A stretch of 64,000 nucleotides of DNA from Parasphingorhabdus cellanae (GTDB taxonomy: Bacteria > Pseudomonadota > Alphaproteobacteria > Sphingomonadales > Sphingomonadaceae), in the NCBI RefSeq assembly GCF_017498565.1, contig NZ_CP071794.1:2098001-2162000 (forward strand), written 5' to 3'. The notes beneath the pieces are model-generated. The model saw only the letters and a list, made by a program, of their open reading frames with translations, was not told where the DNA came from and did not search any database. This document shows, in pieces, positions 11,001-27,088 of the stretch. How positions within the stretch are numbered: position 1 is the stretch's first letter; the number at the start of each line of letters is the position of its first letter. A program made the position numbers and the translations under genes.

Positions 11001-14000
11001 CCGTGACCGTGACGGTCGCGGTTGAGAAGCCGCCTTCGCCATCGGTAACCGTGTAGATGATTGTATCTTCGCCGTTGAAATTGGCATTGGGCTTATAAGC
11101 CAGCGTGCCATCAGGATTGATTGTGACCGTACCATTGCCGGCCTCTGCCTCGGTAATCGTCAGCGGGTCACCATCGGCATCCACGTCATTGGCCAGCACG
11201 GTGACTTTAACCGCCGTATCTTCGTCAGTCGTCACACTATCATTGCTTGCCACGGGCGCCGGGTTGGTTACCGTCCACTCGAAGCTTGTGGAAACAGTTC
11301 CCCCGCGACCGTCATCGGCGTTCACAGTAATCGCATAGACGCCGCCATTCACCTGGCTCGCGCTGCGATCAATTGTACCGGAGATAACACCGGTTGCTGG
11401 GTCGATAGTGAGGCCCGCGGGCAGCCCCGTCGCAGTGTAGCGCAGGCTGTCGCCATCAGGATCGCTGAACGCGCCTGCAACCGGAAGGCTGATGACCTGG
11501 CTATCCAAATTGGTCTGATCGCCAATACTGCCATTGGTAGTTGGCGTGTCATTAACATCCGCGACAGTGACCGTAATCTCGGCCATTGAGGTTCCACCCT
11601 CACCATCCGAAATTTCGTAAGTGATGGTATCCGTACCATTAAAGCCCGGGTTCGGCGTGTAGGTGACCGTGCCATCAGGGTTGATCACCACATTGCCGTT
11701 TTGCGCGCTCGCCGCTGTGATGGTCAGATCATCGCCATCCGGATCGCTGTCATTGGCGAGCGGCGAAATCGTGACCGGCACATCTTCATCGGTCGATGCG
11801 CTATCATCAACGGCCGCCGGGCCGGGGTTGCTGACATTAAACGTGATCGTTTGCGTCGTTGTACCACCATTACCGTCCGACACTGTGATAGTGGCGGTAT
11901 AAGTCCCACCACTTGTCTGGCTGGCGCTGTTGTCGATCGTGCCGGAGATAACACCGCTGTCCGGATCGATGGACAGCCCGGGCGGCAAGTCAGCCGCCGC
12001 GTAGGTTAGGGTATCGCCATCCACATCGCTGAAATTGCCCGCAACCGGAACAGAGATAACCGCTCCATCTTCGGTATCCTGCGACGGCAAAGCTGTGCCA
12101 ACTGGCGCATCGTTTACCGGTGCAACCGTGACCGTAATCGTCGCGGTTGCTGTTCCGCCTTCCCCATCGCTGATCGTATAGGTGATCGTCGCGGTACCAT
12201 TGAAATTGGCCGGCGGAACATAGTTGACCTGATTGCCAACCACGGTTGCCTGCCCGACCGACGCAGCGGCGGCGATCAGCGTAATCGGATCGCCATCAGG
12301 ATCGGAGTCATTGGGCAGCACATCGATGAGAACGGGCGTATCTTCGTTGGTAGTCGCCGTGTCATTGACGGCGACAGGTGCCGGATTGGTTACGCTCCAG
12401 CTAAACGATTGCGTCGCACTAAGTCCACCAGCATCCGTCGCCGTCACGGCAACAGTATAGACACCGTTTGACCCGCCCTGACTGGCGGACCGATCAATGG
12501 TTCCGGTAATCTCCCCCGTATTGGCATCAATAGAAAGACCAGCTGGTAGCCCGGATACACTATAGTTCAAGGTCGCATCGTCGCTATCGGTAAAGCCGCC
12601 TGCCGTCGCGATGCTGATACCGCTATCTGCATCGACATTGGTTTGCGGCGGCAAGGAGCCCAAAGGTGTCGGTGCGTCGTTAACCGCAGCAACCGTGACT
12701 TCAACCGTAGCGGTTGATGTTCCGCCCTCGCCATCGCTGATCGTATAGGTAATCGTGTCCGTGCCATTAAAATTAGCATTGGGTGTGTAGGTTATGGTGC
12801 CATCGGGATTGACGACAACCGTACCATTGGATGCACTCGCCGCTGTTACCGTCAAATCATCGCCATCAGGATCATTATCATTGGCCAGCACGTTGACCGT
12901 GACCGCCATATCTTCATCGGTGGAAGCCGTATCATTGGCCGCCATTGGCCCAGGATTGGTGACAGTCCACGCAAACGTCTGGGTTGCCGGTGTGCCCTGA
13001 AAATCTGTTGCGGTTATAGTGACGGTATAGACGCCATTGGTACCGCCCTGACTGGCGCTATTGTCTATCGTGCCGGTAATTTCGCCGGTATTGGAATTGA
13101 TCGAGAGACCCGGCGGCAGGCCAGCCGCGCTATAGCTGATCGATGGACCGTCAATGTCCGTAAAGCCGGATGCCGTGGCAACGCTGATTCCTGTCGCTGC
13201 ATCAATATTGCTCTGCGGTGGCAAGGTGCCAACCGGCTGCGGCCCGTCATTCACGGCAACAACAGTCATATTATAGACCGCCGTGTCCGTCCCGCCCTCG
13301 CCATCGCTAATCGTATAGGTGATCACGTCATTGCCGTTGAAATTGGCATTGGGTGTATAGGTCAGCGTGCCATCAGGATTAATCACCACCGTGCCATTGG
13401 GCGCGCTTGCGGCGATCACCGTCAGCGGTGCATCACCATCGGGATCGCGGTCATTGGCCAGCACGTTGATCGTGGCCGGCGTATCTTCATTTGTCGAGCC
13501 ACCATCATTATTGGCTTGCGGCGGCGGATTGGTAATCGTCCAGGCAAAGCTCTGGTTGGCGGACGCACCGTCCGGATCGGTTGCGGTTACAACGATATTA
13601 TAAACGCCGCCCGAACCACCCTGACTCGCGCTATTGTCAATCGTACCGGTAATGGCGCCTGTATTTGTGTTAATGGACAGACCCGGCGGTAGCCCGGTCG
13701 CCGAGTAGCTTAGCTCACCAAAACCATTGTCTGCATCTCTAAACCCTTGCGACGTGTTGACAAAAATCCCCTGCGCCGCATCCACATTGCTTTGCGAAGG
13801 TAGGCTACCCACCGGCACAGGCGGATCGTTTACCGCCGCTATGGTTACGTCAAAAGTTGCGGTCGACGTACCGCCGCGCCCATCGCTGATCGTATAGGTA
13901 ACGGTGTCGGTGCCAGAAAACCCGCTATTCGGTGTGTAATTTAACGTGCCGTTCGCATTGATAGTAACGGCGCCATTATTCGCACTGGCCGACGCGACAG

Positions 14001-16539
14001 AAAGGGCATCTCCATCGCCGTCAAAATCATTGGCGAGCACATTAATGCTGGTAATCGCCGTGTCTTCGTTGGTGCTCTGGGTCGCATCATTGACCGCTGT
14101 TGGCGGGTCGTTAATTTCCACGACCCGGATCGTCGATGTCGCGACGTTGGAACTGAGCGCCGCATTCGCAAAGCTGATATTGATGGTACGGTCCACTTCA
14201 GATGGCCGTTCTGTCGTGTTTTCAAAAGTGATCGCACGCAACGCAAGGCGATAATCCCTCGCGCTATCTGCGCCTGTCAACTCCACACCGCTATCCGTGC
14301 GTGTGTAGCTAATCCCCCTCACTGTGCCTGATGCCGCCGCCGAGCCATTAACCAGCAACCGGTCGCCAGCTTGCGCGTTGGTCAGCACAATGCTGGCGCT
14401 TTGCACTTGGCCATCGGGATTGGTAATCCGGACGTCCCGGTCCACAATGCCGACACTATTTCTGTTTTCGACGTAAGTGCCCTGATAACCCGATCCGCTA
14501 GAGGTACTGTCATTACGATCCAGATCCAACCGCGGGATGGAGATCGTTGTACCGCCACTACCAAGATTAAAATCCAGATCGCCATCATGGCTGAAACCCG
14601 CTGTACCGGCTGCATTGGGATTGACGTTATAGGTAATTGCAAAACTACTGGTGTCGAGCCAGTTAAAACGTGCCGCAGAACTAGCGTCACCGCCTTCATT
14701 TTGGGTGCCCGACGCGGTTACTTCACCTGCTATACTGGTATCAAATTCAATATCCGATGGTCCGGCATTTTGAAAAGAGGACAGGGTGTCTGTATCGACA
14801 GTGACCCACTCCCGGCTTCGTGAATCACCGTTCCGCCCGTCAATATCTGCCACCGTGAATGATACATCAACATCTACCGGTACACCGCTGGCCGTATAAA
14901 ATATGTCCCACTGAATCTCGGCTGTAGCGGTAGTCCGGGGCCCGCTGGACACCAGCAAAAAGGCCGGATCGTCATCGCTGCCGCCAAATGGGCGATCAAA
15001 GCGGATCGTCTCGCCTTGCGTAAGAGAAGCAATAGTTGCGCGAATGGAAATCGACTGGCCATTTACCGTGCCGACATTTTCCCAAGTCCCGGTCGCTCCA
15101 ACGGTCTGTCCAGCCGAGCGGTTGCCATTTTGATTAAAGCCGTTGCTGCCGGACGCGACAATATTGCCATTCGCGTCGCGCACGGTAAGAGAATCGCGCG
15201 GTGCGGAAATGGCTGCCGGTGCCAGCAACCCATCCCAATCACGCGCGACCAGTGACGCCGATTCCACCTGACCAAGCCGGTTTTCCAGCGTCCAGTCTCC
15301 GCCGCGCAATATGCTGCCGGTATCGTCGATGGAAGCCGCAATATCTGCACCCGTGGTCGCTGCGAGCGCGTTCATCAACTGCTGCCCCGCCTCGCTGCTG
15401 CCAACTTCGCAACCATAAATCAGAATGTCACCATCGGCAGACAATTTGGCACCAATGGACGCCAGCGAAGATGCCAACACACCAGATACTGACGCGCTGT
15501 CAATCTGCGTTGTGCCCAGCCAGAATACGCCCTCGTCACCATGGCTGACCAGATGGATGGCACCAATATTGTCGACACCCGCCAAAGCGGTCATGATCTG
15601 GTCGACGCCGTCGCTATTGCCATCAATGAAGACAATGACACCCTTGCCAGCCCAAGTATCGGCCAGCTCTTGATAATTTTCCACATTGGTGTCGATAAAA
15701 ATATAGTCTTGCCCAGTCGCCGCCGCGCTTTCTCCGACCACGACATCATCGGACAGGGCCGGCTCACCAATATACAACACCCGATTCATGGCAAAGCGGG
15801 AGTCATTGTCATCTATGATGAAATAGTCCCGGAAGTTGGCCGGCCGTACACCCGGCTCTCTGATATCATAAGCGGCCGGCTCGGGCAGCGCTGCTTGCTT
15901 ATAAACAATATCGTTCGGCGCCACGTCTGCAGCCGAGGGAGAATTTGAAATTGCACCATTGCCAACAGGCTCATTGGCAAATACTTCCTTTGAAACAAGT
16001 TGCTCTTTTACAGTAATATTCTCGGAAATATTTGAAGACAATTGCGCCGGGTCAACGGGTATAAGAACGGGATCATTATTCACAGGAATGGTAGCTACCG
16101 TTTCCACGATGGGCTGCGATGATTCTGACCCGTTTCCGACCGTAGAAAATGCCTCTATATCGTCTGATCCGGCCTCATCACCCACACCGTTGAGCGACGA
16201 TGCCTCTGCAATATTGCTATTGTCTAAAACCGAGCTCATGCTGTCCGAAAACGGGCCTTGAACCGCTGGAACGGGCACGTTTACAGGTGTTAAGTCGGTA
16301 TGATCCTCTCCGGTCTCCTGCTCGGACGTAATTGGCGGCGCCAAGCCGATATTAGGAATCGTATCACCAGTAAGGCCGTTACTACCGGCAGTAAAAGGAC
16401 CGGCCGATGAAGAATCATTTTCCAACATATCAGCGGATGACAATGTGGCCGCCGCAGTAACGACTGCTGCGCCGTCAAACATCATTCGTGGCTCTAGAGC
16501 GATGAGATGGGATTGCGGAATCCGGGTTTGCTTGGCCAT
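2077..16539 (-). CDS. Giant DUF4347 / cadherin-like repeat surface protein (type I secretion adhesin)
   Basis: One uninterrupted ORF of 4820 codons. There is no Sec signal; residues 15-24 are LEPRMMFDGA, the motif seen at the start of giant type I-secreted adhesins. A Ser/Asp-rich linker leads to a DUF4347 domain at about residues 253-430 (VFIDGNSDGVDQ, HLVSHGDEGVFWLG, LIYGCEVG). A region with beta-rich features follows to about 810. From about 814 to 4557 come tandem modules: 25 'tandem-95'/cadherin-like units (NDTATTDEDTPV ... DPDGDPLTVT ... NFNGTDTITYTISDGNGG) and 15 He_PIG-type units (GLPAGLSIDPATG ... SGTID). The C-terminus (about 4560-4820) is non-repetitive and ends LLAAFKS. No RTX nonapeptides were seen. 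GGAGAG precedes the ATG. DxDGD motifs suggest calcium binding. Probable role: cell-surface adhesion or biofilm, exported by the adjacent TolC/adaptor. Confidence 0.93.
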   Translation of the reverse strand: MAKQTRIPQSHLIALEPRMMFDGAAVVTAAATLSSADMLENDSSSAGPFTAGSNGLTGDTIPNIGLAPPITSEQETGEDHTDLTPVNVPVPAVQGPFSDSMSSVLDNSNIAEASSLNGVGDEAGSDDIEAFSTVGNGSESSQPIVETVATIPVNNDPVLIPVDPAQLSSNISENITVKEQLVSKEVFANEPVGNGAISNSPSAADVAPNDIVYKQAALPEPAAYDIREPGVRPANFRDYFIIDDNDSRFAMNRVLYIGEPALSDDVVVGESAAATGQDYIFIDTNVENYQELADTWAGKGVIVFIDGNSDGVDQIMTALAGVDNIGAIHLVSHGDEGVFWLGTTQIDSASVSGVLASSLASIGAKLSADGDILIYGCEVGSSEAGQQLMNALAATTGADIAASIDDTGSILRGGDWTLENRLGQVESASLVARDWDGLLAPAAISAPRDSLTVRDANGNIVASGSNGFNQNGNRSAGQTVGATGTWENVGTVNGQSISIRATIASLTQGETIRFDRPFGGSDDDPAFLLVSSGPRTTATAEIQWDIFYTASGVPVDVDVSFTVADIDGRNGDSRSREWVTVDTDTLSSFQNAGPSDIEFDTSIAGEVTASGTQNEGGDASSAARFNWLDTSSFAITYNVNPNAAGTAGFSHDGDLDFNLGSGGTTISIPRLDLDRNDSTSSGSGYQGTYVENRNSVGIVDRDVRITNPDGQVQSASIVLTNAQAGDRLLVNGSAAASGTVRGISYTRTDSGVELTGADSARDYRLALRAITFENTTERPSEVDRTINISFANAALSSNVATSTIRVVEINDPPTAVNDATQSTNEDTAITSINVLANDFDGDGDALSVASASANNGAVTINANGTLNYTPNSGFSGTDTVTYTISDGRGGTSTATFDVTIAAVNDPPVPVGSLPSQSNVDAAQGIFVNTSQGFRDADNGFGELSYSATGLPPGLSINTNTGAITGTIDNSASQGGSGGVYNIVVTATDPDGASANQSFAWTITNPPPQANNDGGSTNEDTPATINVLANDRDPDGDAPLTVIAASAPNGTVVINPDGTLTYTPNANFNGNDVITYTISDGEGGTDTAVYNMTVVAVNDGPQPVGTLPPQSNIDAATGISVATASGFTDIDGPSISYSAAGLPPGLSINSNTGEITGTIDNSASQGGTNGVYTVTITATDFQGTPATQTFAWTVTNPGPMAANDTASTDEDMAVTVNVLANDNDPDGDDLTVTAASASNGTVVVNPDGTITYTPNANFNGTDTITYTISDGEGGTSTATVEVTVAAVNDAPTPLGSLPPQTNVDADSGISIATAGGFTDSDDATLNYSVSGLPAGLSIDANTGEITGTIDRSASQGGSNGVYTVAVTATDAGGLSATQSFSWSVTNPAPVAVNDTATTNEDTPVLIDVLPNDSDPDGDPITLIAAAASVGQATVVGNQVNYVPPANFNGTATITYTISDGEGGTATATITVTVAPVNDAPVGTALPSQDTEDGAVISVPVAGNFSDVDGDTLTYAAADLPPGLSIDPDSGVISGTIDNSASQTSGGTYTATITVSDGNGGTTTQTITFNVSNPGPAAVDDSASTDEDVPVTISPLANDSDPDGDDLTITAASAQNGNVVINPDGTVTYTPNPGFNGTDTITYEISDGEGGTSMAEITVTVADVNDTPTTNGSIGDQTNLDSQVISLPVAGAFSDPDGDSLRYTATGLPAGLTIDPATGVISGTIDRSASQVNGGVYAITVNADDGRGGTVSTSFEWTVTNPAPVASNDSVTTDEDTAVKVTVLANDVDADGDPLTITEAEAGNGTVTINPDGTLAYKPNANFNGEDTIIYTVTDGEGGFSTATVTVTVNAVNDGPTTVGLANQNGEDGADVSIPTAQGFDDIDGDDLTFTASGLPPALSIDPDTGLITGTLASDSSVNGPFVVTVTATDPSGESVSTTFVYSIQNIPPIAVNDTATTPEDTPVTVAVLTNDSDPDGDPLTITAASSQDGTVVVNPDGTLTFTPAENFNGEALVTYTVSDGQGGVATATLTVDVVAVNDAPESLPIPDVTNEDNQAVSVDTGSFFSDLDGDTLTFEVTGLPAGLSIDPATGIISGTIDRNASQPNGGVYSVTVTGTDPDGLTTSQTFSWTVTNPAPTAVNDTATTDEDTPVNITVLTNDTDPDGDPLTVTMATALNGTVTINPDGTLTYEPDANFNGTDTITYVISDGNGGTSTAAVEVTVNPVNDPPVAVDDVATTNEDMPVTIGVLGNDTDTDGDPLTVTAATSPNGTVVINPDGTITFTPAPNFNGPTTITYTISDGNGGTSTATVAVTVDAVNDPPVANIDSATTDEDTPVDIAVLANDTDVDGDPLNVTAADAPNGTVTINPDGTVTYVPDPDFNGTDTITYTISDGQGGFSTSTVEVTVNAVNDAPVATPIAPQNDNDADVINLSVASNFTDVDGDTLTFTAAGLPLGLSIDAAGNITGTIDPGASQGGPGSDGIYNVTVTADDGNGGTVSQTFVWEVNNPAPVATDDTATTDEDTPVTIPVLANDNDPDGDALSVTSATASNGLVTINPDGTITYTPNPDFNGTDTITYTISDGNGGTSTATVEVTVAPVNDAPVVDSPLPNVTGVDGEMPSIPTAGNFSDVDGDALTFTAAGLPAGLTIDPDTGLITGTIDNQASQLNGGVYTVTVTADDGNGGTVSTAFTYTVTNPAPTATNDSATTDEDTPITIAVLANDNDPDGDDLTVTVASAPNGTVVINADGTITYTPDQDFNGTDTITYTISDGNGGTSTATVEVTVAPVNDAPEVDIPISNLNNEDADVISVDVSDKFSDLDGDTLTFTAAGLPAGLSIAANGLITGTIDNQASQINGGVYTITITADDGNGGTVDGTFTWTVTNPAPTAVNDTATTNEDTPSAPIAVLANDNDPDGDSLTVTSATAPNGTVVINPDGTLVYTPAANFNGTDIITYSISDGNGGTSTATVEITVVAVNDAPTADPPLNNQVNDDADVISVDVSGSFEDLDGDTLTFTAAGLPAGLSIDGNGVITGTIDPNASQVGGGVYTVTITADDGNGGTVDSVFTWTVNNPPPVAANDIATTAEDTAVNIPVLTNDSDPDGDTLTVISADSANGTIVIEPDGTLTYQPDPNFNGTDTIVYTISDGNGGTATATVEVTITAVNDAPETVGLPDLFDSNNEAITVPLGSAFSDVDDATLTFNITGLPTGLTFDPATGEVTGTTGATASSDVTDGEYTVTVTATDANGLTESTTFTWTITNEPPRAVNDNYTGTEDTLINLDVLTNDVDPDGDPMTPIEIVSATATNGTAVILPNGTIDFTPDPDFNGTATVTYTIQDANGEFATAVATIVIDPVNDAPDGTILPDRDNEDGDAVSADFGSLFSDPEGDTLTFTANNLPAGLSIDMMTGEISGTVDPDASQANGGVYQVEITATDDGGEETTQSFIWTITNPGPTANADTASTTEDTASAPIDVLANDNDPDGDDLTVTAATAPNGTVVINPDGTLVYTPDENFNGTDTITYVISDGQGGSSTSTVTVTVGAENDDPTVTPLAALGNADADVIAIDVSGSFDDLDGDTLTFTETGLPPGLSIDAAGNITGTINPSASQGGPDGDGIYAVTITADDGNGGTVSSTFSWTVTNPPPVANDDGPIAVTEDTPLDINVLSNDTDPDGDTLTVTLATAGNGDVTINPDGTLNYMPDPDYNGPDTITYTISDGNGGTSTATVEINVGAANDDPVASPIAPRSAVDGAVVSVPVAANFSDVDGDTLTFTAAGLPLGLSIDPNTGVISGTIDSNASQPAGGIYTVVITADDGNGGTVDQSFTWTITNPPPVAVNDTASTSEDLPVNIPVLGNDNDPDGDTLTVTTASAANGTVVIQPNGTIDYTPDPDFNGTDTITYTISDGNGGTSTATVAVTVGAVNDPPVAVNDTAVTEEEEPVTIPVLSNDSDVDGDPLTVTSATAPNGTVVINPDGTVTYTPDPDFNGTDTITYVISDGQGGTATATVAVTVNPVNDAPVAVDDIATTPEDTPVTLNVLGNDTDVDGDPLTVTGATSPDGQVTINPDGTVTFTPNPNFNGTTTVTYTVSDGNGGTATATVTLTVDPVNDAPIATPDVGQTDEDTPITVSVLDNDIDADGDPLTITAATAPNGMVVINPDGTVTYTPNPNFNGTDTITYTVSDGNGGFATTTATITVNPVNDMPVAVNDNVSTPEDAPVTIPVLGNDTDADGDPLAVTDATSPDGMVVVNPDGTITFTPNPNFNGPTTITYTVSDGQGGTSTATVTVNVTPVNDPPAVVPSEAATPEDTPVTLSPLGNASDVDGDPLTIISATSPNGTVTINPDGTITYTPDPNFNGTDVITYQVSDGNGGFTTATITVTVSPVNDPPIAANDIADTDEERPLVIPVLANDVDLDGDPLTVTNATAANGTIVINPDGTITYTPNVDFFGTDTITYTISDGNGGTSTATVAVTVRNTNEVPVDGNEEVFGIGGAETIIDVLANGTDPDGDPLSVFTAKVDIGTVVINPDGTISHFADPEFQGVATITYIVSDGQGGFVESTATVIVTQANANVNELLGNPGIGYPDSELPGTTVNPVNQFITTPLIIDDTANSFRSLNNTPDLNGSRPLLTAVNGLRPLNGMGELDVDGSPIGEVVDQLDQIRDLRFGADRLFDPRFGDFLVEGLTGFSVRQLSTGSDQVMIESVVRDRVIYMEVRDIGADSDPRITEYQLRTRDGSPLPGWIRMDARGLAIIERPVDAETVRLIVRAIRADGQVIEIPVIVQGATGEIQIDEGRELSQNMNGAAPLGSAMAMADASVADETAQLLAAFKS
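2870..14115 (-). repeat. Protein-coding tandem repeat array of the adhesin (25 tandem-95 plus 15 He_PIG modules)
   Basis: Counted by eye in protein order. Units 1-7 and 10-17 of the tandem-95 type are each followed by a He_PIG unit. Units 8 and 9 are followed directly by the next tandem-95 unit, and units 18-25 form an uninterrupted run at the C-terminal end. Each unit is about 90-95 residues. Protein sequence is highly conserved while third codon positions differ from copy to copy, which argues against very recent duplication. The last unit (25) is the most divergent. Confidence 0.9.
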
Positions 16540-16961: not shown

Positions 16962-16979
16962 TGGTGCCAGAAGAGGACT
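16962..16979. repeat. Distal attachment-site remnant (tRNA-Leu 3' end copy)
   Basis: tggtgccagaagaggact matches the tRNA 3' end at 27002-27020 (tggtgcccagaagaggact) with one missing C; the last 13 bases (16967-16979) are identical to 27008-27020. Orientation is direct, as required for a site-specific insertion. A further piece of the tRNA T-arm (ggactcgaac) occurs at 17098-17107, so the original site may be split by about 118 bases. Confidence 0.65.
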
Positions 16980-17112: not shown

Positions 17113-18822
17113 TTATTCGCCGCTGCCTTCGTCTTCTAACGAGATGCCGAATGCCTTTACCTTACGCTCTCTCATTGGCGATTTTCTGCCTATCCTCCTG
17201 AGCGCTTCGGTAGCGGAAACAAGCAGGTCTTCGGCACCGTCGCGGTTTGATTTTCCCATGGCCAACAATGCCTCAATTGTAATCTTCAAACTGGGGCCGC
17301 TCAATTCCTCGAAGAACTTCTCAAAATCTTCAGGGGTCTGCTTAGACATCAGCACTAGATCATCATCATTCCATGGAGAATTGCTTCCAATTTGTTTTAA
17401 GACTTCGAACGGGTCTCTATGGTCTTCAAAATTATCCAATTTATTCGCGAGCGTTTGGCGCAACCCTTGGTCGATGTCATTATACCTCGCATAGATGTGG
17501 TTTTTAATATCGAAGAAATTTCGTGCTTCGCCATCATGTGCTTGCATGTACAAACCAATCAAGTTGTCAGCTCGTTCATCCGTATCATATTCTCTGAGCA
17601 TATAAATCGCGCTGCTCAAGTTGGTTATTGAAACTTGAGCAATCGACTCGACAGCCGCACCATAGAGCGCCTCGATAAACTCATCATCTTCGGTGGTAAG
17701 CGAGCCATGGTACTTATCCTTCCAAACCTGGCTGAGCGAGCTGTCATTTCCAGATAATCGCCGGGTGTGCTGTAGTACCTCAGCCGCAGAGCGAAGTGCA
17801 GCACCGTCAAAATATCCCGCTTTGGCTCCGACTAAGATTATCTCATCCATCTCGTGAGACTCGAAGTACGGATAGCCTTTCAATACTTCAGCCCAAGGGT
17901 GTGACGGGTTTTCATTGTTCCCATCTTGGTCTCTCATTGCCTCAATAAGCGGATTATAACTAAAATACTCTCTTGTCGGCGGAGCAAATTCGGGCTGATG
18001 AATCGACCATCCGGTAGCAGTAAGAGTCGCAATCGCCTGCTCCAATACGATTTCGTCCAAACCCTTTAGATGATCGAGCAGCACGTCGGCCAAGCGTTCG
18101 ATCTTCTTGATCACCCTGATATTGACTATCCCCAAGTCTTCGATCCGGGGTCGGATAAGATCTTGTGTCTTCCTATCGTCGGGCAATGCAATCTGAGTTG
18201 CTTCTTTAGGTGTCAGGTCGAAAAGGATTGAGAGGTCCGCGACCTTCTCTAATTGCGCGTTAAACTCTTTTTTTGATGCCGCATCCATTTGCTCGTCATT
18301 GAGCAATAAGACGACTTTGCAATTGCGCTCCTCCTTCAAAGAAGAGGCCAACCCCAAGACGTCCCTAACTTCGAGATTTTTGCCAGCTCGCTCAAGATCG
18401 TCCAAGCAAACGATCTGTTCGCGGACGGTGAGAAAGGAAGCCTTGGCCAGCACATCCACGGCGTTCTCGCGACCGAAAAGCGCAGCACCGAACTCAAGCG
18501 CAGGTTTTAGCTTGCGCGCTAGGCTAGAGCCGTTGGCCAAACGCGCGCCAAATGTTTCGATGTCCGGCCCTTTAGCAGCGTGTTTGCTCCCGACGGTATT
18601 TTCAAAAATGCTGTACCTAAGTTGGTCCAGCGAACCTAAACCGAAAAGCGATACGTAAGCGTAGTTTTCGAGGGCAACATTGCCTGCCTCAACGGCATCT
18701 GAAAGATACTGCTTCCATGCAAATGTCTTACCGACCCCCCACTTCCCCTGTATGCAAAGAACTTCGGGTTCTGTGCTCAACAAAAAACGGTCAATCTCCG
18801 CTCTAATTAGTGCTAAAGTCAT
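17113..18822 (-). CDS. KAP-type P-loop NTPase
   Basis: A 569-residue protein with Walker A GKWGVGKT at residues 26-33 and a Walker B-like IVCLDDLER about 115 residues later, followed by a KVVLLLNDEQM sensor-like strand. This arrangement is typical of KAP/STAND-type NTPases. The C-terminal half is acidic and helical with no domain I can name and no membrane segment. The start is the ATG at 18822; only GAGAGA is upstream. It lies 47 bases downstream of the restriction-methylation gene on the same strand, so co-expression is likely. KAP NTPases occur often in defence islands. Inferred role: NTP-driven partner or effector of the neighbouring R-M protein. It could instead be an independent defence ATPase. 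The exact family was not checked by search. Confidence 0.75.
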   Translation of the reverse strand: MTLALIRAEIDRFLLSTEPEVLCIQGKWGVGKTFAWKQYLSDAVEAGNVALENYAYVSLFGLGSLDQLRYSIFENTVGSKHAAKGPDIETFGARLANGSSLARKLKPALEFGAALFGRENAVDVLAKASFLTVREQIVCLDDLERAGKNLEVRDVLGLASSLKEERNCKVVLLLNDEQMDAASKKEFNAQLEKVADLSILFDLTPKEATQIALPDDRKTQDLIRPRIEDLGIVNIRVIKKIERLADVLLDHLKGLDEIVLEQAIATLTATGWSIHQPEFAPPTREYFSYNPLIEAMRDQDGNNENPSHPWAEVLKGYPYFESHEMDEIILVGAKAGYFDGAALRSAAEVLQHTRRLSGNDSSLSQVWKDKYHGSLTTEDDEFIEALYGAAVESIAQVSITNLSSAIYMLREYDTDERADNLIGLYMQAHDGEARNFFDIKNHIYARYNDIDQGLRQTLANKLDNFEDHRDPFEVLKQIGSNSPWNDDDLVLMSKQTPEDFEKFFEELSGPSLKITIEALLAMGKSNRDGAEDLLVSATEALRRIGRKSPMRERKVKAFGISLEDEGSGE

Positions 18823-18869
18823 TTCTCTCGATCGCCCATGGTGTTCGGTAATCTCCCTGTCCTCGCTAA

Positions 18870-21800
18870 TCAGATGTTGGCTTCGAGTAACTCGATCTCT
18901 TCCGCGGTCAGGTCGAACAGTTCATAGACTTTCGCGTTGATCTCGTTTTCCGTCTGCGCGATTTCTGCTGTGAGCGCGTTGATTTGGTCCCGCGTCTCTT
19001 TGATCAGGTCTTCCCAATCGTTGCGGTCTTTCAACGGGATGTCGGCCCTGAGGGTCTTTTCGACCTCTTTTTGGAAGGCGGCGAAGTCGGGCAGCAGCCA
19101 CCATTCTTTGAGTTTGGTGGAAAGCTTTGCAGCGGCTGGATCAGCAGCAAGATCAGGGATGCGCCGGTTGATGCTTTGTTGGAGCGAGTAGCGCTTCTCA
19201 GCAGCAGCCTGCGCGGCTTTGGCAAGTTTGCCGATAGCAGCTTTCTGTTCGGGTGTGGCATCAGGGATGGGGAGTGGCTCGATATATTGAGCCTTGAATC
19301 GGTAATAACCTCCTCTTGCTTTAGTGGTCTGAGAGAGCAACGAAAACCAAAGTAAAGCCGAGTTCAACAAGCCTAACAAGAACGGGTCGGAAGTAGGGAG
19401 GAAATAGCTCGTTGTATCATTTATCTTCGAGCGATTGTCGCAGAAGAATGTCGGGGCAGCAGCTATGTCGCGATAAATGATCTTCGCCCTGTGAAGGGCA
19501 TCATAATAAGCGCATGAGCGCAGTTCCCACCAAAAAAAACCTTTGTCTGTTCTGCGCTTTAAGCTCTCTTCATGCTGTGCCAAATGCGCCCAGATCGCGG
19601 GAAATCGTCTCGCGAGTAATTGCTTGGCTTCATTCTCATTCACCGCACCGAATTGCTCGTTGGTCCACCCTTTGGGAAGCAGAATAAGGCTCTGCTCCGA
19701 ATCTTCTTCTCGCCATTTTTGAACCGCTGCACCATCAATCCATGGTTTCAAAATATCAGACGATTTTGGATCTTGCGCAATCAACCGGTCCCGCGTTGCG
19801 CGGTCGATCACAAACGCATCATTGCGGCCCGTCTTGATGCCATAGAGCGGCGAGCCATAGATCTCTTTTAGCGTCTTGCGCCCTTTGACAATCTTGGCTC
19901 TCAGAGCGCGCAGTGCTGGCGATTCCAATTGCCACGATCCCGCTGGCAGCACCCTTTGCGGATAGGGTGCCTTGGCGGTCTCAAAACCATCTGCAAAGCT
20001 GCCTTTAGGCAATTCGGCGATGTTCCAGAATTGCAATTCGTGATCCACATTGGGCGCGCCTGCACGCATAGTCAGGATTGCGGGATAAGTTGTTACACCT
20101 TCAAAAATCTGATGATCGCCAAAATCGACTACATTCTCAATCGTGGCGCTCTTGCGCAGATACTCACGAAGTGGTGCGCCCGAACCAGTCTTAAAGAATG
20201 TGCTCGAGCTGATATAGCCCAGCCGCCCGCCGGGCTTCAAAATGCGTAAGCCGCGCTCAAAGAAGTAAGCGTAAAGGTCCGCAACACCGTGGTAGACTTC
20301 GAAACGGTCTTTTAGATAGGGCTTTAGTTCTTTGAGCAATTCCTGTCGCACATAGGGCGGATTGCCCAGCACTACGTCAAAGCCGCCCTCGGCAAACACA
20401 TCTGGAAACGCCTCTTTCCAGACAAAGCCGTGCTCGCGGTAAGCATAGGAGCTGTCTTCTATCAGGCTATCGCCAACGCGCAGATTGCCATCCAGACTGT
20501 CCAGCACTTTGCCGCGCCGAGCGGTTTTGATCCAGAGCGATAGTTTGGCAATCTCCACGCTCTCACTGTTCACATCCACGCCGAACAGATTGTTGGTAAG
20601 GATTTCGCTGTCAGGATCAAACAGGTCGCGCCCGCCCGATAGTGCAGCAAGCTTGCCATTCACCCGCTCAAGCTCGGCCTTCATCCAATCGAACGCAATC
20701 ACCAGAAACACGCCAGAGCCGCAAGCGGGGTCCACAATGCGTAAAGATGTTAGGCGTTTGCGGTAAGCCTCCCACGCTTCTTGCTCTGCACTTTTGCGCT
20801 TCCACTTGATCTCTTCATCATCGGCCAGCGCGCCCTTGGCAGCATATTCGACCAAAATGCCGTCAAAGATTTCGCGGCAATGGGTGCCTAGTGTCTGCTC
20901 AACAATAAATCGTGCGACATAGTCGGGCGTATAAACCACGCCATCACGCTTGCGCCGCCCGCTGGTGCCGCTAGTCTTTTTCTCGGCTGGTGCTTCGCCT
21001 AGCGCTTCGGCCTGCAATTGCTCCACATCAGCAATCGACTGCTCGAAAATGTGTCCGAGAACTGTGACTGAAATTTCGCTGGCAAAGTCATAGGCGCCCA
21101 GCCGCTTGAACCCCTCGCAAATGTCATCCGGAATCTCAAGCGAGCGGATAATAGGATCGCGGGCAAACAGACCGCCATTGTAGCGTGGTATCTTGAGCTG
21201 ATCGGAGCCCTTATCAATCGCGGTGAACAGACCCAGGAAATTCTCCCAAACCGGTTTCGGATTGTAGGGGTCATTATGCTCGAAGGCGTTCTGGAGACTG
21301 TTATCTGGCACAAGGTTGTTATCTTCAGCAAAGGCGATGAACAACACGCGATCCAGAATGGTCTGACCTACGCTGATCGCTTCGAGCGGGTCCATGTCAG
21401 GCTTAGCTGTTTGCACCGCACCGATCAGATCTGATCGCAACATTTTGTAGTCAGCATAGAGCTCGTCGGTGATGTCTTTGTCTTCTGAGCGGCTGTCTGC
21501 CAACAATTGTTCTGTTTGACCCGTGAGCAAGTGTTCAGCGGCCAGCATGAGCATGAAGCGCTGATACTCTTCCGGCTGGTGCAATTTGGCGAGGTCAAAG
21601 CTCTCGTGGAATTGCCGCCCGTCTGCGTATGAGTAGAGCCGGATTTCGAGATAATTGGAAACCAGAATCCATTTTGTGCCGACATTGTTCGCAGCATATT
21701 CCCACGCCTGATCGATCGGGCTCTTGGCGCGGCCCGGCATGATCGCATCGAGGTCTTTGGTCTTTGCGCCTTTCAGCTCGAACGGGGCAATGATTTCGCT

Positions 21801-22085
21801 CGACTCAGGGGAGAACTGCCCTAGGGCGAGATCAACCTCGCCAGCTCCAATCGCTTTCTTTGATGCGACACTCCATTCCCCGCTTGAGCCAAACGAAATG
21901 TAATCCAAAACATCGCAGACAATACGTTGCTTAAAGGAGTCTTCAATTGCAGTTTCGTTCTGTGTTTGGATCGAACCATCTGCGATTGTCGCTGCCCATT
22001 CCCGCAAAATTTCAAGCTTGGCTTGATCGGCTGGTTCAGCGCGCTCGACATAACGGGCGATGGTTTTGCGATTGAAAAGCTGCAT
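18870..22085 (-). CDS. Eco57I-like fused nuclease / adenine-specific DNA methyltransferase (type IIG-like)
   Basis: A 1071-residue single-chain restriction-modification protein. The N-terminal domain carries a PD-(D/E)xK-like pattern (GEVDLALG at about residue 85, PFELKG at about 102). The methyltransferase domain has VVYTPDYVARFI, motif I DPACGSG (about residue 450) and motif IV VVLGNPPYVRQ (about residue 573), the gamma-class adenine methylase order. The C-terminal part resembles TaqI/Eco57I target-recognition regions and ends in a coiled-coil stretch (TRDQINALTAEIAQTENEI). Length matches type IIG/IIL enzymes. It is first in a two-gene unit with the KAP NTPase. The ATG at 22085 lacks a good ribosome site. 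BREX PglX is a relative but normally lacks the N-terminal nuclease. Confidence 0.85.
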   Translation of the reverse strand: MQLFNRKTIARYVERAEPADQAKLEILREWAATIADGSIQTQNETAIEDSFKQRIVCDVLDYISFGSSGEWSVASKKAIGAGEVDLALGQFSPESSEIIAPFELKGAKTKDLDAIMPGRAKSPIDQAWEYAANNVGTKWILVSNYLEIRLYSYADGRQFHESFDLAKLHQPEEYQRFMLMLAAEHLLTGQTEQLLADSRSEDKDITDELYADYKMLRSDLIGAVQTAKPDMDPLEAISVGQTILDRVLFIAFAEDNNLVPDNSLQNAFEHNDPYNPKPVWENFLGLFTAIDKGSDQLKIPRYNGGLFARDPIIRSLEIPDDICEGFKRLGAYDFASEISVTVLGHIFEQSIADVEQLQAEALGEAPAEKKTSGTSGRRKRDGVVYTPDYVARFIVEQTLGTHCREIFDGILVEYAAKGALADDEEIKWKRKSAEQEAWEAYRKRLTSLRIVDPACGSGVFLVIAFDWMKAELERVNGKLAALSGGRDLFDPDSEILTNNLFGVDVNSESVEIAKLSLWIKTARRGKVLDSLDGNLRVGDSLIEDSSYAYREHGFVWKEAFPDVFAEGGFDVVLGNPPYVRQELLKELKPYLKDRFEVYHGVADLYAYFFERGLRILKPGGRLGYISSSTFFKTGSGAPLREYLRKSATIENVVDFGDHQIFEGVTTYPAILTMRAGAPNVDHELQFWNIAELPKGSFADGFETAKAPYPQRVLPAGSWQLESPALRALRAKIVKGRKTLKEIYGSPLYGIKTGRNDAFVIDRATRDRLIAQDPKSSDILKPWIDGAAVQKWREEDSEQSLILLPKGWTNEQFGAVNENEAKQLLARRFPAIWAHLAQHEESLKRRTDKGFFWWELRSCAYYDALHRAKIIYRDIAAAPTFFCDNRSKINDTTSYFLPTSDPFLLGLLNSALLWFSLLSQTTKARGGYYRFKAQYIEPLPIPDATPEQKAAIGKLAKAAQAAAEKRYSLQQSINRRIPDLAADPAAAKLSTKLKEWWLLPDFAAFQKEVEKTLRADIPLKDRNDWEDLIKETRDQINALTAEIAQTENEINAKVYELFDLTAEEIELLEANI

Positions 22086-22303: not shown

Positions 22304-22412
22304 GGCTCAAAAGTTGTAACTTATTAGCCATAGCTCAAAAGATATGTTGACGAGCCATTGATCCACTCTTATGAGCTAGCTTAACAGCAACACTAACTTA
22401 TGAGCTACCTTA
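22304..22412. promoter_or_regulatory. Repeated-box array over the serine recombinase promoter (candidate res site/operator)
   Basis: Four near-copies of a 10-base box occur: ggctcaaaag (22304-22313) and agctcaaaag (22332-22341) in one orientation; cttatgagct (22368-22377) and cttatgagct (22397-22406) in the other. The layout is nearly symmetric about 22354. A weaker fifth box is cttattagcc (22320-22329). A promoter candidate TTGACG (22347-22352), 17-base spacer, TATGAG (22370-22375) overlaps the third box, and the fourth box covers the ATG of the recombinase. The gene-free stretch 22086-22399 contains nothing else that I can identify. Confidence 0.6.
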
Positions 22413-23008
22413 TGCCACATCAGATCGCCTACTACCGAGTATCCACCAAGGACCAGAGCATTGAAGCACAACGTAGTGCGATGGGTGGGGCCTTCGACCA
22501 AGAGTTTAAGGACGAGGGAGTAAGTGGTGGAACCCTAGCTGCTAAGCGTCCCGGCTTTAATGCCTTGCTAGGTGCTGTGCGCAACGGAGATACAGTATAT
22601 GTATATGCCGTTGATAGACTGGGAAGAGACGCACTAGATGTTCAGGCCACGGTGCGCAGACTCATTGATGCTGGAGTGACTGTAAACGTCCAAGGTATTG
22701 GTCCAATCGGTCGCGGTGCAGGAGAGATCGTTTTAGCAGTTCTCGCCCAAGTAGCAGAGATGGAGAAAAGGCGGATTGCAGAGCGCACTGCCGATGGCCG
22801 GGAAACGGCTAGAAAGGCCCTCGCAGCGACAGGAAAGACGCACAGGGGAAAAGACAGCCTTGGGCGTCCAAAAGCTCTCAGCGAGGCCTCTGTGTCCAAA
22901 TGGCGTCAGGATGAAAAGGCTAGTATCCGAGAGACTGCTTTGCACTTCGGTATATCGCCCGCCACCGTGAAGCGATATTGCGCTGCCGTTCCGGCTAAGC
23001 TCACTTAG
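22400..23008 (+). CDS. Serine recombinase (resolvase/invertase family)
   Basis: A 202-residue small serine recombinase. The catalytic serine is in YYRVSTKDQ (Ser15) and the arginine motif is VDRLGRDALD. The E-helix region (VLAQVAEMEKRRIAERT) follows, and a C-terminal helix-turn-helix (RETALHFGISPATVKRYC) binds DNA. This is full length for resolvases of the Tn3/Gin type. Two starts are possible, ATG 22400 or ATG 22412, neither with a strong ribosome site. It is divergent from the R-M gene. The repeated boxes upstream suggest it binds its own promoter. Possible jobs are dimer resolution, DNA inversion or island mobilisation; no partner transposase is present. Confidence 0.9.
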   Translation: MSYLMPHQIAYYRVSTKDQSIEAQRSAMGGAFDQEFKDEGVSGGTLAAKRPGFNALLGAVRNGDTVYVYAVDRLGRDALDVQATVRRLIDAGVTVNVQGIGPIGRGAGEIVLAVLAQVAEMEKRRIAERTADGRETARKALAATGKTHRGKDSLGRPKALSEASVSKWRQDEKASIRETALHFGISPATVKRYCAAVPAKLT

Positions 23009-23071: not shown

Positions 23072-23827
23072 TCAAGACGGTAGGCGAGCGTTGATCGCCC
23101 TCTTATCGATACAAACCCTTGAGCGTCTTAGAAACACCCCCATTATCCCAAAACCAAGTATTAGCATTAGCCAACTAGCGGGTTCTGGCACAGCGGTAAG
23201 CACCGAGCTTTCCACCGTAGCGTTTAGTCCTACGAACAATTCCGTGTCTGCATTGAGCAGCCCATAGCTAAGGGTTTGCGCACCGAAGGCAGAGAGGGGA
23301 GCCAACTGTGAGATAAGGTCATTGTCCCGCGCCATTGCAGTAAAATCAAATGCGGAGAAGCCTAAGCTCTCCGAAATTTGTCCAGTTCCAACCTCAAAAG
23401 AATTTGTGTCTATGGGTACAAAGTCGAAATTGAAAAACCTGAATGACTGCGCATCGGTTGTGTCCACGACTACCCTGTCGTCCCAAAGTTGTAACGATGA
23501 GTTGAAATTGAACCGAGGGGTAAATTCTGTGGTGTACCCTCCAATGGATGCAAAGACCTTAGTGTTACTTAAGCTGTACACGTTCACCGTAGGGTCGGCG
23601 TCAAACAAGTCACTAAGCTCTGCCGTAGAGAAGTCCATTACCGCTTTCAGTTCGTATCTATCGCCTACTGCGATCTGACCGTCAGGAACGCTGGCGACTT
23701 CCCCATCTTGGCGCGCAAAAATGTCAGAGACCTTGCCCGTGACGGTCAAGATATGAGTAGCAGAAAACGCGGGGCTTCCAAAAACCAATAACCCCAATAC
23801 AACGAGCAACCTTGGCAATTGATTCAT
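23072..23827 (-). CDS. PEP-CTERM sorting-signal protein
   Basis: A 251-residue exported protein. The N-terminus is a Sec signal (LLVVLGLLVFGSPAFSA). The C-terminus has the PEP-CTERM tripartite signal VPEPASWLMLILGFGIMGVF followed by RRSR. A further 14 residues follow the basic cluster, a longer tail than usual. Such proteins are sorted and cleaved by exosortase; none is encoded in this window, so a chromosomal exosortase would be needed. The middle is beta-rich with no recognised function. Its presence as island cargo between a recombinase and unknown genes is unusual. Confidence 0.85.
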   Translation of the reverse strand: MNQLPRLLVVLGLLVFGSPAFSATHILTVTGKVSDIFARQDGEVASVPDGQIAVGDRYELKAVMDFSTAELSDLFDADPTVNVYSLSNTKVFASIGGYTTEFTPRFNFNSSLQLWDDRVVVDTTDAQSFRFFNFDFVPIDTNSFEVGTGQISESLGFSAFDFTAMARDNDLISQLAPLSAFGAQTLSYGLLNADTELFVGLNATVESSVLTAVPEPASWLMLILGFGIMGVFLRRSRVCIDKRAINARLPS

Positions 23828-24030: not shown

Positions 24031-24609
24031 ATGATCAAAGATACGCGGATTAAAGCAGCTAACATGGAACTCCAGTCGATATTGAAGGATGCAGCCGATC
24101 AATGGTTTGCCAACCAACCCGACAATGCGCGCTTGACTATGTCACCTGACAAAAGAGTTTATCGCGCTCGTCCAAAAGGTTTTTCAAAGGCAATCAGTAA
24201 CGTGTGTGTTCTATTGGTTGAATCCACGCTCTTCCGCAGAAAAACAAACCAACAGATAGTTGAGCATCTACAGGGCCTCTTCTCAGGTTACCCGGTTTCA
24301 ATCACCGTGCTAAATAAGCCGTTGTTGCCCTCTCATAAAACAGCCATTCAATCTGCACTCAACGGCAAAGGATGGAAGATTGATTTGGATAGGCAGAATA
24401 CGCCGTCAAAGTTAAAGAGAGCCCTGAGGGCAATCGCAGCGGGACAAGAGGCGACAGATAAGAGAACTTTTGATGCTACCGTTATCTTCACAACCAGTTC
24501 GGTGATAGTAAACGATAGAGAATACAAAATTTCGTCCGAAGGTAGAATAAGAAAGAATGGACGATGGATTGCTGTCGATACACTGGAAAGTTTACTATCA
24601 TCATCATAA
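24031..24609 (+). CDS. Hypothetical island protein (192 aa)
   Basis: I do not recognise this family. The protein is basic, has no signal peptide or membrane segment, and looks like a mixed alpha/beta cytoplasmic protein. Residues 50-90 (SKAISNVCVLLVEST ... QIVEHLQGLFSGYPVSITVL) suggest a small alpha/beta fold. Near the C-terminus is a strand-rich part (TFDATVIFTTSSVIVNDREY). The start is the ATG at 24031, about 30 bases after the second of two 11-bp direct repeats. It stands alone on the plus strand between two minus-strand genes. It is probably island-specific cargo. Confidence 0.6.
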   Translation: MIKDTRIKAANMELQSILKDAADQWFANQPDNARLTMSPDKRVYRARPKGFSKAISNVCVLLVESTLFRRKTNQQIVEHLQGLFSGYPVSITVLNKPLLPSHKTAIQSALNGKGWKIDLDRQNTPSKLKRALRAIAAGQEATDKRTFDATVIFTTSSVIVNDREYKISSEGRIRKNGRWIAVDTLESLLSSS

Positions 24610-24728: not shown

Positions 24729-25172
24729 TTAATGCTCGGGCGTGTTAGAAGCCCTATTGCTGGCAATCTGAAGCGTTTCCCAAGCTATCATTACAGACTC
24801 ATGGTCAATTGCTGGAATCGATAAAGAACCCTGTCCCGTCCCATAGATTTTAACCATCGAGACAACCGCTTTGGAAACCGAATTTGAGTGTTCCTGATAC
24901 CTCGGATTGCCTATCGCAAATGTTAAAGCAGCGGCAGCATGGCCCACTGGCCCTAGTGATTGAGTGCTTTGACCGATAACCGCCACGGGAGAGTCGTCCC
25001 ACGAGTCACGCATCATTGCCTCGACCAACTCTCGTTCAGCTAAAGCCTTGTTACCGGATAGCTGAAAATGACTAGCCAATAGCTCGGTGGCACCGCTCCG
25101 TTTTGACGGACGTTTAGATAGAATAATTACGAACGATATTAAAACCAGAACAAGCAGTAATGCAATTTCCAT
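24729..25172 (-). CDS. Hypothetical membrane-anchored protein (147 aa)
   Basis: The N-terminal 20 residues form one hydrophobic helix (IALLLVLVLISFVIIL) followed by a basic cluster (SKRPSKRSG), giving an inner-membrane anchor with the rest probably cytoplasmic by the positive-inside rule. The remaining 115 residues are helical with small residues (GPVGHAAAALTFAIGN). I recognise no family. It is divergent from the XRE regulator with a 72-base shared promoter region. It may be regulated by that protein, but nothing in the sequence proves it. Confidence 0.55.
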   Translation of the reverse strand: MEIALLLVLVLISFVIILSKRPSKRSGATELLASHFQLSGNKALAERELVEAMMRDSWDDSPVAVIGQSTQSLGPVGHAAAALTFAIGNPRYQEHSNSVSKAVVSMVKIYGTGQGSLSIPAIDHESVMIAWETLQIASNRASNTPEH

Positions 25173-25244: not shown

Positions 25245-25490
25245 GTGCCGCGCCAATCGATCAAAACTGACAAAGATGGAAACCTTAAGAAATTGGGTGA
25301 CGCAATTCGTGCGGCTCGAAAGGCCCGAGGATTCTCACAGGAGGCGTTTGCAGACGCGGCTGGCATCGACAGGTCACACATGGGTAAAATTGAGCGTGGT
25401 GAACGAAATTTGAGCGTTCTCAATATAATTCGCATTGCTTCCGCACTTGACGACCGAGCATCGGATGTTTTCCGCGCGGCTGGTCTTTAA
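25245..25490 (+). CDS. XRE-family helix-turn-helix regulator (81 aa)
   Basis: A compact Cro/CI-like HTH domain fills the whole protein: LGDAIRAARKARGFSQEAFA, then DAAGIDRSHMGKIERGERN with the recognition helix, then LNIIRIASALD. The start is GTG at 25245; no in-frame ATG gives the same domain. Its last four bases overlap the 3' end of the convergent integrase gene. Small stand-alone regulators beside integrases typically control excision or integrase expression. A perfect palindrome in the integrase promoter (26922-26935) is a candidate binding site. Confidence 0.9.
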   Translation: MPRQSIKTDKDGNLKKLGDAIRAARKARGFSQEAFADAAGIDRSHMGKIERGERNLSVLNIIRIASALDDRASDVFRAAGL

Positions 25491-26911
25491 TCAGCCACTT
25501 CAAAGCGAGGGAATTTTGCAAGCTCTTCAGCTTTGAATGGCAACGATACGCTCCCGTAATCATCATTAACGGTACGACCCGAATGTCCCATAATAGCTAG
25601 CCTTGCTCGCTCGTTCATCCCACAACTAGTGCCGATAGTATTAAACAAGTGACGCCATCCATGGTTAGGTTTAACGCCGCTAACTCCAAGCCCTCTAACC
25701 CATTCAGCAATCTTTGAGCCCAACCTGTTAGCTTGCCGATTGATCGCATTGTCGGCGCTACGAAGACTAGGGTTAAAAAATAGTGGGCCATCCAGCCTAC
25801 CATCAACAAAGGATAGAAAGCCCTGCTCTAACAGGTGCGCGTGCAAGGGAACCATTCGAGCCTCGTTAGTCTTAACCCTTCCTGCCTCTGGCGTTATTCG
25901 CATACACGGAATTCCCTCATGCGTTTGGATGTCTTCCTTTCGCAATTGGGTCACTTCTCCTACGCGAGCACCGCTATATGCCATAAGCCAAGGGCACCAT
26001 CTAACGGCATTGCGAAAATCGTCCCTAGGTCGGCCCTTTAACTCTAAGAGCGTTGCAGAGAGGATCGTTCGCCATTCCTCATTGGTAAACTCCTTCTCCC
26101 TAAGTTTGGGTTGCTTGGGTAGCTTAACTCTAGTCACTTCGGTCGTCGGGTTCTTAGCTATTAGACCATCCCCTTTTGCCCATGCGAACAAGGCAGAAAC
26201 AGAACCTAGATAACTACCATTTATTGTCTTGGCTGCGAGGGGCTTGCCTTTGTACCTTACCTTGTCCCGAAGATGGTTTCTCCAAGCGACAACTTGATCA
26301 TGGTTAACTGCATTGGCATCGTCATGCCTTATAAAGAGGACTAGCGACTTTATATAAGACCTCCACTGAGCCATCGTTTTTGGGTTACGTCCAGCGACGG
26401 CAGCATACTGGTCAAAGAGACTTAAAATGGAGAATTTGTTGGCTAACGCTTCCTCTCGTTTGATCTCAGCTAGAAACTCTAACTCCTGCTCCCTCTGTTT
26501 TATCCTCGCGGCCTCTCCTCGCACTACTGCCCTCGCAGCATAGTCAAGATCAGTTTCCATGAGGTGATCATGTTCTTGCAGGTCTTGATAAGCCAATTTT
26601 TCTAACTCAAGTTGTTCCTCGCTTATCGCATAGTCAGCACTCGGCTTTCGTGGATTCAACTCGGTATCCAGCAAATGGTTGGGTTCCGACGGCTCGATCA
26701 ATCCAGCCCGTGCATCAGATATGAGTTGATCCGTTTTTATTACGTGACTTGGAATTAGCGATTTAGCCGTAGCTCTGTCTTTGGTCCTCAACGACCAAAC
26801 CCATTCGTCTTTGCGTTTGCCACTCGACGTCTTGAAAAAGATTCGAATGTCCAAAGGTATCGGCCTACGGAAATAATATACTGAACTGCGCTTTTGGAGG
26901 TATGTTGACAT
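25487..26911 (-). CDS. Tyrosine site-specific recombinase (island integrase)
   Basis: A 474-residue phage-type integrase. The N-terminus resembles the DUF6538 arm-binding segment (SSVYYFRRPIPLDIRIFF). A SAM-like core-binding domain (about 180-270) is followed by the catalytic domain. Active-site residues seen: Arg in YSGARVGEV (about 315), Lys in GRVKTNEARMV, HxxR in HGWRHLF (about 418), His in MGHSGRT, and nucleophile Tyr in NDDYGSV (about 452). All are present, so the enzyme should be active. GGAGAAG precedes the ATG at 26911. It lies 90 bases from the 3' end of tRNA-Leu, the expected place for an integrase that uses that tRNA as attachment site. Confidence 0.95.
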   Translation of the reverse strand: MSTYLQKRSSVYYFRRPIPLDIRIFFKTSSGKRKDEWVWSLRTKDRATAKSLIPSHVIKTDQLISDARAGLIEPSEPNHLLDTELNPRKPSADYAISEEQLELEKLAYQDLQEHDHLMETDLDYAARAVVRGEAARIKQREQELEFLAEIKREEALANKFSILSLFDQYAAVAGRNPKTMAQWRSYIKSLVLFIRHDDANAVNHDQVVAWRNHLRDKVRYKGKPLAAKTINGSYLGSVSALFAWAKGDGLIAKNPTTEVTRVKLPKQPKLREKEFTNEEWRTILSATLLELKGRPRDDFRNAVRWCPWLMAYSGARVGEVTQLRKEDIQTHEGIPCMRITPEAGRVKTNEARMVPLHAHLLEQGFLSFVDGRLDGPLFFNPSLRSADNAINRQANRLGSKIAEWVRGLGVSGVKPNHGWRHLFNTIGTSCGMNERARLAIMGHSGRTVNDDYGSVSLPFKAEELAKFPRFEVAD

Positions 26912-27001: not shown

Positions 27002-27088
27002 TGGTGCCCAGAAGAGGACTCGAACCTCCACATCCTTGCGAATACTAGCACCTGAAGCTAGCGCGTCTACCAATTCCGCCATCTGGGC
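27002..27088 (-). tRNA. tRNA-Leu (anticodon CAG)
   Basis: Read on the minus strand, the acceptor stem GCCCAGA pairs with TCTGGGC, followed by A and an encoded CCA. The D-arm (GGAATTGGTAGACGC), the anticodon stem CTAGC/GCTAG with loop TTCAGGT (CAG at 34-36), a long variable arm typical of Leu, and T-loop GGTTCGAGTCC are all present. It is 87 bases long with CCA. Its 3' end is repeated at 16962-16979 and marks the island attachment site. The 231 bases to the next gene hold no other feature that I can support. Confidence 0.97.
27008..27020. repeat. Proximal attachment-site core inside tRNA-Leu
   Basis: ccagaagaggact is identical to 16967-16979 at the other island end; the similarity extends to the CCA end of the tRNA with one gap. 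Confidence 0.65.

Follow-up and report, generated by a model that had tools for sequence, protein, structure and literature searches.

A type IIG restriction-modification enzyme and a KAP-superfamily NTPase, probably independent anti-phage genes, in a tRNA-Leu island of Parasphingorhabdus cellanae

The two genes

Two adjacent genes on the minus strand of Parasphingorhabdus cellanae were analyzed within a window of 64,000 nucleotides (assembly GCF_017498565.1, contig NZ_CP071794.1, positions 2,098,001 to 2,162,000), the window being the whole stretch of DNA under study. The open reading frame (ORF) at 18870..22085 encodes a single-chain type IIG restriction-modification (R-M) enzyme of 1071 residues with the order nuclease, methylase, target recognition, and is followed by an ORF at 17113..18822 for a KAP-superfamily P-loop NTPase of 569 residues. 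A simple scan of the 47-base gap between them (18823..18869) picked up neither terminator-like nor promoter-like sites. The GC content of the NTPase gene (0.485) differs slightly from that of the enzyme gene (0.526). A first-pass annotation, whose positions, strand and spacing for the two ORFs agree with the ORF list, had proposed that they form a candidate defence module and that, if the pair were conserved, an NTP-dependent R-M or abortive system would be suggested. The pair is not a conserved unit in the samples searched. Based on the distribution and context of both genes, they are interpreted here as two independent anti-phage genes sharing one island integrated in a tRNA-Leu gene, and not as one system (probability about 0.75).

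The type IIG enzyme matches the Pfam domains Eco57I (148.8 bits) and TaqI_C (38.2 bits), together with MmeI_Mtase, and the PADLOC model REase_MTase_IIG (PDLC03609) at 516 bits over residues 96-1068. Its motifs were checked in an alignment of 20 sequences, the window protein included, in which the residues D85, E103 and K105 of a PD-(D/E)xK-like motif (21771..21833), methylase motif I (DPACGSG, residues 452-458; 20712..20732) and methylase motif IV (NPPY, residues 575-578; 20352..20363), all encoded on the minus strand, were invariant. The nuclease-like N-terminus and gamma-class methylase motifs of the first-pass annotation are thereby borne out. A nuclease motif, gamma-order adenine methylase motifs and a C-terminal specificity domain lie in one chain, as in other type IIG enzymes, from which no outstanding difference was seen. 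Full-length relatives are up to 79% identical. The protein looks like an intact, ordinary single-chain type IIG enzyme, and its family membership would imply that methylation and cleavage of its target need no partner protein. One plasmid-borne relative (L122, 6001-9183), 60% identical, has a gene of the RloB family on one side and one of an abortive-infection family on the other.

The NTPase carries a Walker A motif (GKWGVGKT, residues 26-33; 18724..18747, minus strand) and a Walker B motif (VCLDDLER, residues 138-145; 18388..18411, minus strand). These were compared in the loci that passed a filter of at least 350 bits and fewer than 700 residues, 109 of 135 (78/80 genome and 31/55 viral loci). 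Residues G26, G29, G31, K32 and T33 of Walker A and D141, D142, E144 and R145 of Walker B were found in all 109 relatives, and W28 in 108. The start of the ORF matches the N-terminus of most of the 27 relatives which, with the window protein, make up a 28-member alignment (A1). The assignment to the KAP NTPases was upheld by a narrow score: the match to Pfam KAP_NTPase (PF07693) reached 22.9 bits against a curated cut-off of 20 and covered residues 18-39 only, while at E ≤ 0.01 the model matched 18 of the 28 members of A1. No hit was listed when the organism's own genome was searched with PF07693 at E ≤ 0.001, the NCBIfam scan of the NTPase gave no match and the search of solved structures gave no credible one. 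At least 1,175 relatives at E ≤ 0.001 were found among 7,999 scored candidates, the nearest full-length one among the matches listed being 49% identical.

The title of a 2004 report by Aravind reportedly speaks of transmembrane segments inserted in the KAP NTPase domain; such segments are not present in every KAP member. In the window protein no transmembrane segment was visible, the highest 19-residue Kyte-Doolittle mean being 1.12; across all 28 sequences of A1 the maximum was 1.54.

Conservation of the pair

A scan of one genome per species gave 119 loci with relatives of the NTPase; the 80 best were analyzed, each with as much as 10 kb of flank on either side. The flanks were nearly complete in 43 of the 80 loci, and at least 4 kb was present upstream in 58. 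Relatives of the type IIG enzyme (phmmer, E ≤ 1e-5) were identified in the flanks of two of these best 80 loci, both weak. At one (L060) a 582-residue Eco57I-type methylase, scoring 77 bits against the enzyme, precedes an XhoI-type nuclease and lies 1,184 bases from the NTPase gene; at the other (L039) the match of 30 bits lies 7.8 kb away on the opposite strand. None was present at 55 viral loci with NTPase relatives, and a viral scan queried with the single type IIG protein confirmed nothing. In the opposite direction, the NTPase was absent from all ten genome regions around relatives of the enzyme, some of which are cut at contig ends. Three of these ten were flanked by genes for a GDSL lipase, acyl-CoA dehydrogenases and an EamA transporter. 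In four plasmid regions the neighbours of the enzyme were RloB together with Abi, Hsp70, a thermonuclease or an AbiEii-like protein, and not the NTPase. Ten further regions with NTPase relatives, several of them repeating loci of the 80, held no type IIG enzyme.

Co-occurrence within genomes gave the same picture. Among 396 genomes of the order (thresholds 1e-100 and 1e-20) the enzyme was found in 10 and the NTPase in 7, the genome of P. cellanae being counted in both and being the sole overlap; without it the figures are 9/395 and 6/395 with an overlap of zero. The overlap expected by chance in the order, with that genome left out, is about 0.14, and therefore the genes do not track each other, but avoidance is not implied. 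Among 385 genomes of the class (thresholds 1e-60 and 1e-3) the enzyme was found in 6 and the NTPase in 12, again with only the P. cellanae genome in common (5/384, 11/384 and no overlap without it). In a draw of 60 genomes which included this one, the NTPase was matched in three others, one of them strongly (G003, of the same genus).

A conserved pair was thus not recovered in these searches, and adjacency of the two genes is not a conserved feature. The NTPase occurs mostly without the methylase, an outcome which that annotation had itself named as contrary to its proposal. Because the NTPase and the enzyme occur apart, an NTP-dependent type IIG system is not indicated.

Gene context of the NTPase relatives

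The position of NTPase relatives in P2-like prophages gives a lead to their function. The slot between gpA and gpQ is described, in passages of PMC9122126, as an anti-phage hotspot of P2-like phages in which P2 holds old and tin. In 18 of the 55 viral loci, which are all of the loci where both flanking genes were found, the NTPase relative lies between a gpA-like replication protein and a portal protein, and so fills the same slot as old, tin and the other hotspot cargo. The window NTPase differs in its location, which is a tRNA-Leu island rather than a P2-like prophage. Clustering of the 18 slot loci gave 13 groups at 90% identity and 9 at 60%. In seven of these 18 loci the slot contains no ORF of at least 150 residues besides the NTPase. 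Seventeen of the prophage relatives align along residues 1-552 or further, and the remaining one (L162) along residues 1-479. Comparison of 100 neighbours at the viral loci with PHROG gave five matches to nicking at the replication origin and three or four each to several portal families; one portal gave a weak match (E 7e-4) to a solved portal protein. A terminase search found nothing. On account of these relatives in the P2 old/tin hotspot, the NTPase is probably an anti-phage protein.

Matches to the NTPase were also obtained in 140 plasmid records. Among the ten that were viewed, some of the relatives lie near TIR, NACHT, ThiF/MPN or helicase genes.

A general partner of the NTPase was sought among its neighbours. 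Three redundant loci of the 80 were dropped and near-duplicate proteins were removed, which reduced the near set from 144 to 122 proteins and the far set (6-10 kb) from 109 to 107. No Pfam family was present in more than three of the 122 near neighbours at E ≤ 1e-5; therefore there is no general partner. The upstream genes were likewise rejected as a partner signal, as the 53 same-strand upstream ORFs gave 31 singletons, three pairs and two larger clusters, of 12 (UDG-like) and of 4 members; the 4-member cluster and one pair include loci that were retrieved twice or are duplicated. At twelve loci (L054, L061, L062, L066-L070, L073, L074, L081 and L083), mostly of Desulfuromonadales, a related gene lies 43-109 bases directly upstream of the NTPase gene. 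The one such gene tested (L054) belongs to the UDG superfamily, and this is the only recurrent upstream partner seen. Sixty of the 80 NTPase loci were examined for nearby tRNA genes; few have one, so a general link to tRNA genes is absent.

In L002, L010 and L035 the NTPase ORFs are longer (1065 and 1324 residues), as if fused at the N-terminus, but a fusion was rejected; they represent one sequence with the conserved start inside it, and the additional part, judged by eye, appears to be an upstream frame. Over 13.8 kb, a stretch that includes the NTPase gene, the loci L010 (Qipengyuania pacifica) and L035 (Sphingorhabdus sp. 109) share 99.993% identity, the result either of very recent transfer or of contamination in one of the assemblies.

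Comparison with known defence NTPases

PifA of plasmid F and QatA of qatABCD are KAP-superfamily NTPases linked to phage exclusion. A PADLOC search with the window NTPase at E ≤ 1 listed only PDC-S49 and PDC-S20, from a library that was not checked for PifA or QatA models. PDC-S49 was matched at 66.8, 40.6 and 34 bits, the best match covering residues 24-196 of 569 (model positions 29-191 of 624) and leaving the C-terminal half uncovered. Its models PDLC05031 and PDLC05029 match 28/28 members of A1 and PDLC05030 matches 27/28, so that every member matches at least two of the three. The window NTPase is similar in length to PDC-S49 (569 residues against models of 619-629 positions) and differs from it in matching only in the NTPase half. 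PDC models are described, in the parts consulted of PMC10855318 and PMC13356809, as candidates from "guilt by embedding", both single- and multi-gene, and the S presumably stands for single-gene. A literature search on PDC-S49 found no paper.

Tmn of Escherichia coli is presented in sections of PMC11846954 as an anti-phage KAP-family NTPase whose mechanism is unexplained. Membership of the KAP family is common to Tmn and the window NTPase; Tmn is given two transmembrane domains in the same sections, whereas no such hydrophobic stretch is present in the window protein or in the 27 relatives aligned with it. A paper on BREX contained nothing on KAP proteins. A limited literature search found no published name for this NTPase family.

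The island and its tRNA site

The two genes lie in an island of about 10 kb in a tRNA-Leu(CAG) gene (27002..27088, minus strand), the NTPase gene being the last before the distal repeat. The 3' end of the tRNA (27002-27020) is the proximal attachment site, and the size of the island follows from the recurrence of this end at 16962-16979 as TGGTGCC-AGAAGAGGACT, a copy one base shorter. This repeat of 18-19 bases occurs twice in the window and was absent from 100 shuffled windows. The tRNA gene is adjoined by a tyrosine integrase gene (25487..26911, minus strand) with a DUF6538 N-terminus (51.9 bits), the matches to Phage_integrase (21.1 bits) and to a XerA-like model (54.4 bits) both being below cut-off. 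The mobile island of the first-pass annotation was in this way confirmed.

The remaining cargo between the enzyme and the integrase comprises a serine recombinase of the resolvase/invertase type (22400..23008, plus strand; Resolvase 102.4 bits, HTH_7 32 bits), a protein with a PEP-CTERM sorting domain by family scan (23072..23827, minus strand), and proteins of 192 residues (24031..24609, plus strand) and 147 residues (24729..25172, minus strand) for which the family scans gave no match over any cut-off. Two 16-base direct repeats at 22368-22412, 94% alike and 29 bases apart, precede and overlap the start of the serine recombinase gene at 22400 and are possibly its recombination site. A small XRE/controller-like helix-turn-helix protein (25245..25490, plus strand; HTH_3 52 bits, PADLOC Control_protein 62 bits) is encoded next to the integrase and not next to the type IIG enzyme, despite its resemblance to R-M controllers. 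An ORF of 4820 residues (2077-16539, minus strand) with repeated adhesin-like domains, as judged by eye, adjoins the island at its distal end.

Eight genomes of the same genus with the same tRNA-epimerase junction were chosen among the relatives, and seven were informative, the eighth (G018) stopping at a contig end. In three of the seven, counted among the ten proteins scanned for defence families, the junction between tRNA-Leu and the epimerase gene holds defence genes, namely Gabija (G023), a type I methyltransferase (G010) and DISARM DrmD (G012); the junction loci are L237, L239 and L241. The integrases at the sites of two other congeners (G014, G015) match solved integrases.

Interpretation

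On these grounds the type IIG enzyme and the NTPase are regarded as separate anti-phage genes carried by one island. The idea of a candidate defence module survives in part: both genes look like anti-phage cargo of a mobile element, while a joint module does not stand. Anti-phage activity itself is rather likely, to judge from sequence and gene context. The presence of one defence system beside or inside another R-M locus is reported elsewhere in portions of PMC12255303. With a spacing of 47 bases the NTPase gene may be co-transcribed here with that of the enzyme, but this spacing does not point to functional pairing. The NTPase would most likely be a stand-alone, single-gene anti-phage or superinfection-exclusion factor. 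In such a protein, binding and hydrolysis of ATP at the Walker A and B motifs could drive a conformational or oligomeric switch on infection, and the C-terminal half (approximately residues 250-569) could be the sensing or effector part; this infection-triggered mechanism is a guess and rather doubtful.

Several observations weigh against reading the two genes as independent anti-phage functions. The count of 18 slot loci of 55 stands without a background set of prophage genes; the slot was not shown in the other 37 loci, in 11 of the 18 it also contains further ORFs of at least 150 residues, and the 18 prophage relatives share no more than 28-32% identity with the window NTPase. Enrichment of defence genes near the NTPase was not clear, with 92 PADLOC families matched in the 122 near proteins and 64 in the 107 far ones, figures that count families and not distinct proteins. 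Some of the relatives, including some on the viewed plasmids, adjoin ordinary metabolic genes. A restriction gene precedes the NTPase in a few loci, as seen among ten hand-picked neighbours: the XhoI-type R-M genes of L060, Mrr_cat at L009 and L040, and GmrSD_N at L043. On one Sinorhizobium plasmid, selected because both queries matched there, about 8 kb separate the type IIG enzyme from a broken NTPase, among whose pieces lies an insertion-sequence gene. The searches of order and class scored only the top two or three candidates per genome. Finally, KAP NTPases occur in multi-gene operons, with Orc/Cdc6 proteins, according to a passage of PMC10853773.

The alternative that survives best is that the NTPase is a selfish, maintenance or house-keeping accessory gene of mobile elements with no role against phages. 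The metabolic neighbours and the lack of a clear excess of defence genes near the NTPase over those farther away fit such a gene. The occupied old/tin hotspot, the relationship to a guilt-by-embedding candidate and the defence genes that three of seven congeners carry at this tRNA site are at odds with it, and it is considered unlikely. A real two-gene system is quite improbable, whether it be a type IIG enzyme dependent on NTP or an abortive system whose NTPase responds to cleavage or to failed restriction. The shared strand, the short gap with no terminator-like site listed in it and the few other relatives that follow restriction genes fit such a system, but the pairing is not repeated in the 80 genome loci, 55 viral loci, ten enzyme regions or 396 genomes of the order, and the enzyme itself carries nuclease and methylase motifs that are invariant. 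That the NTPase is a portable partner of whichever restriction nuclease precedes it, type IIG here and others at L060, L009, L040 and L043, adding an NTP-driven action to enzymes which otherwise require none, is the least probable of all.

Implications

With the two genes read as independent, the false lead of a two-gene, NTP-dependent type IIG system is removed and a testable one is put in its place, which is a family of KAP-superfamily NTPases. It is this family that remains of interest, its relatives being found in the old/tin hotspot of P2-like prophages, at a tRNA defence site and on plasmids. The tRNA-Leu(CAG) site of the genus is, in addition, a promising place for more defence genes.

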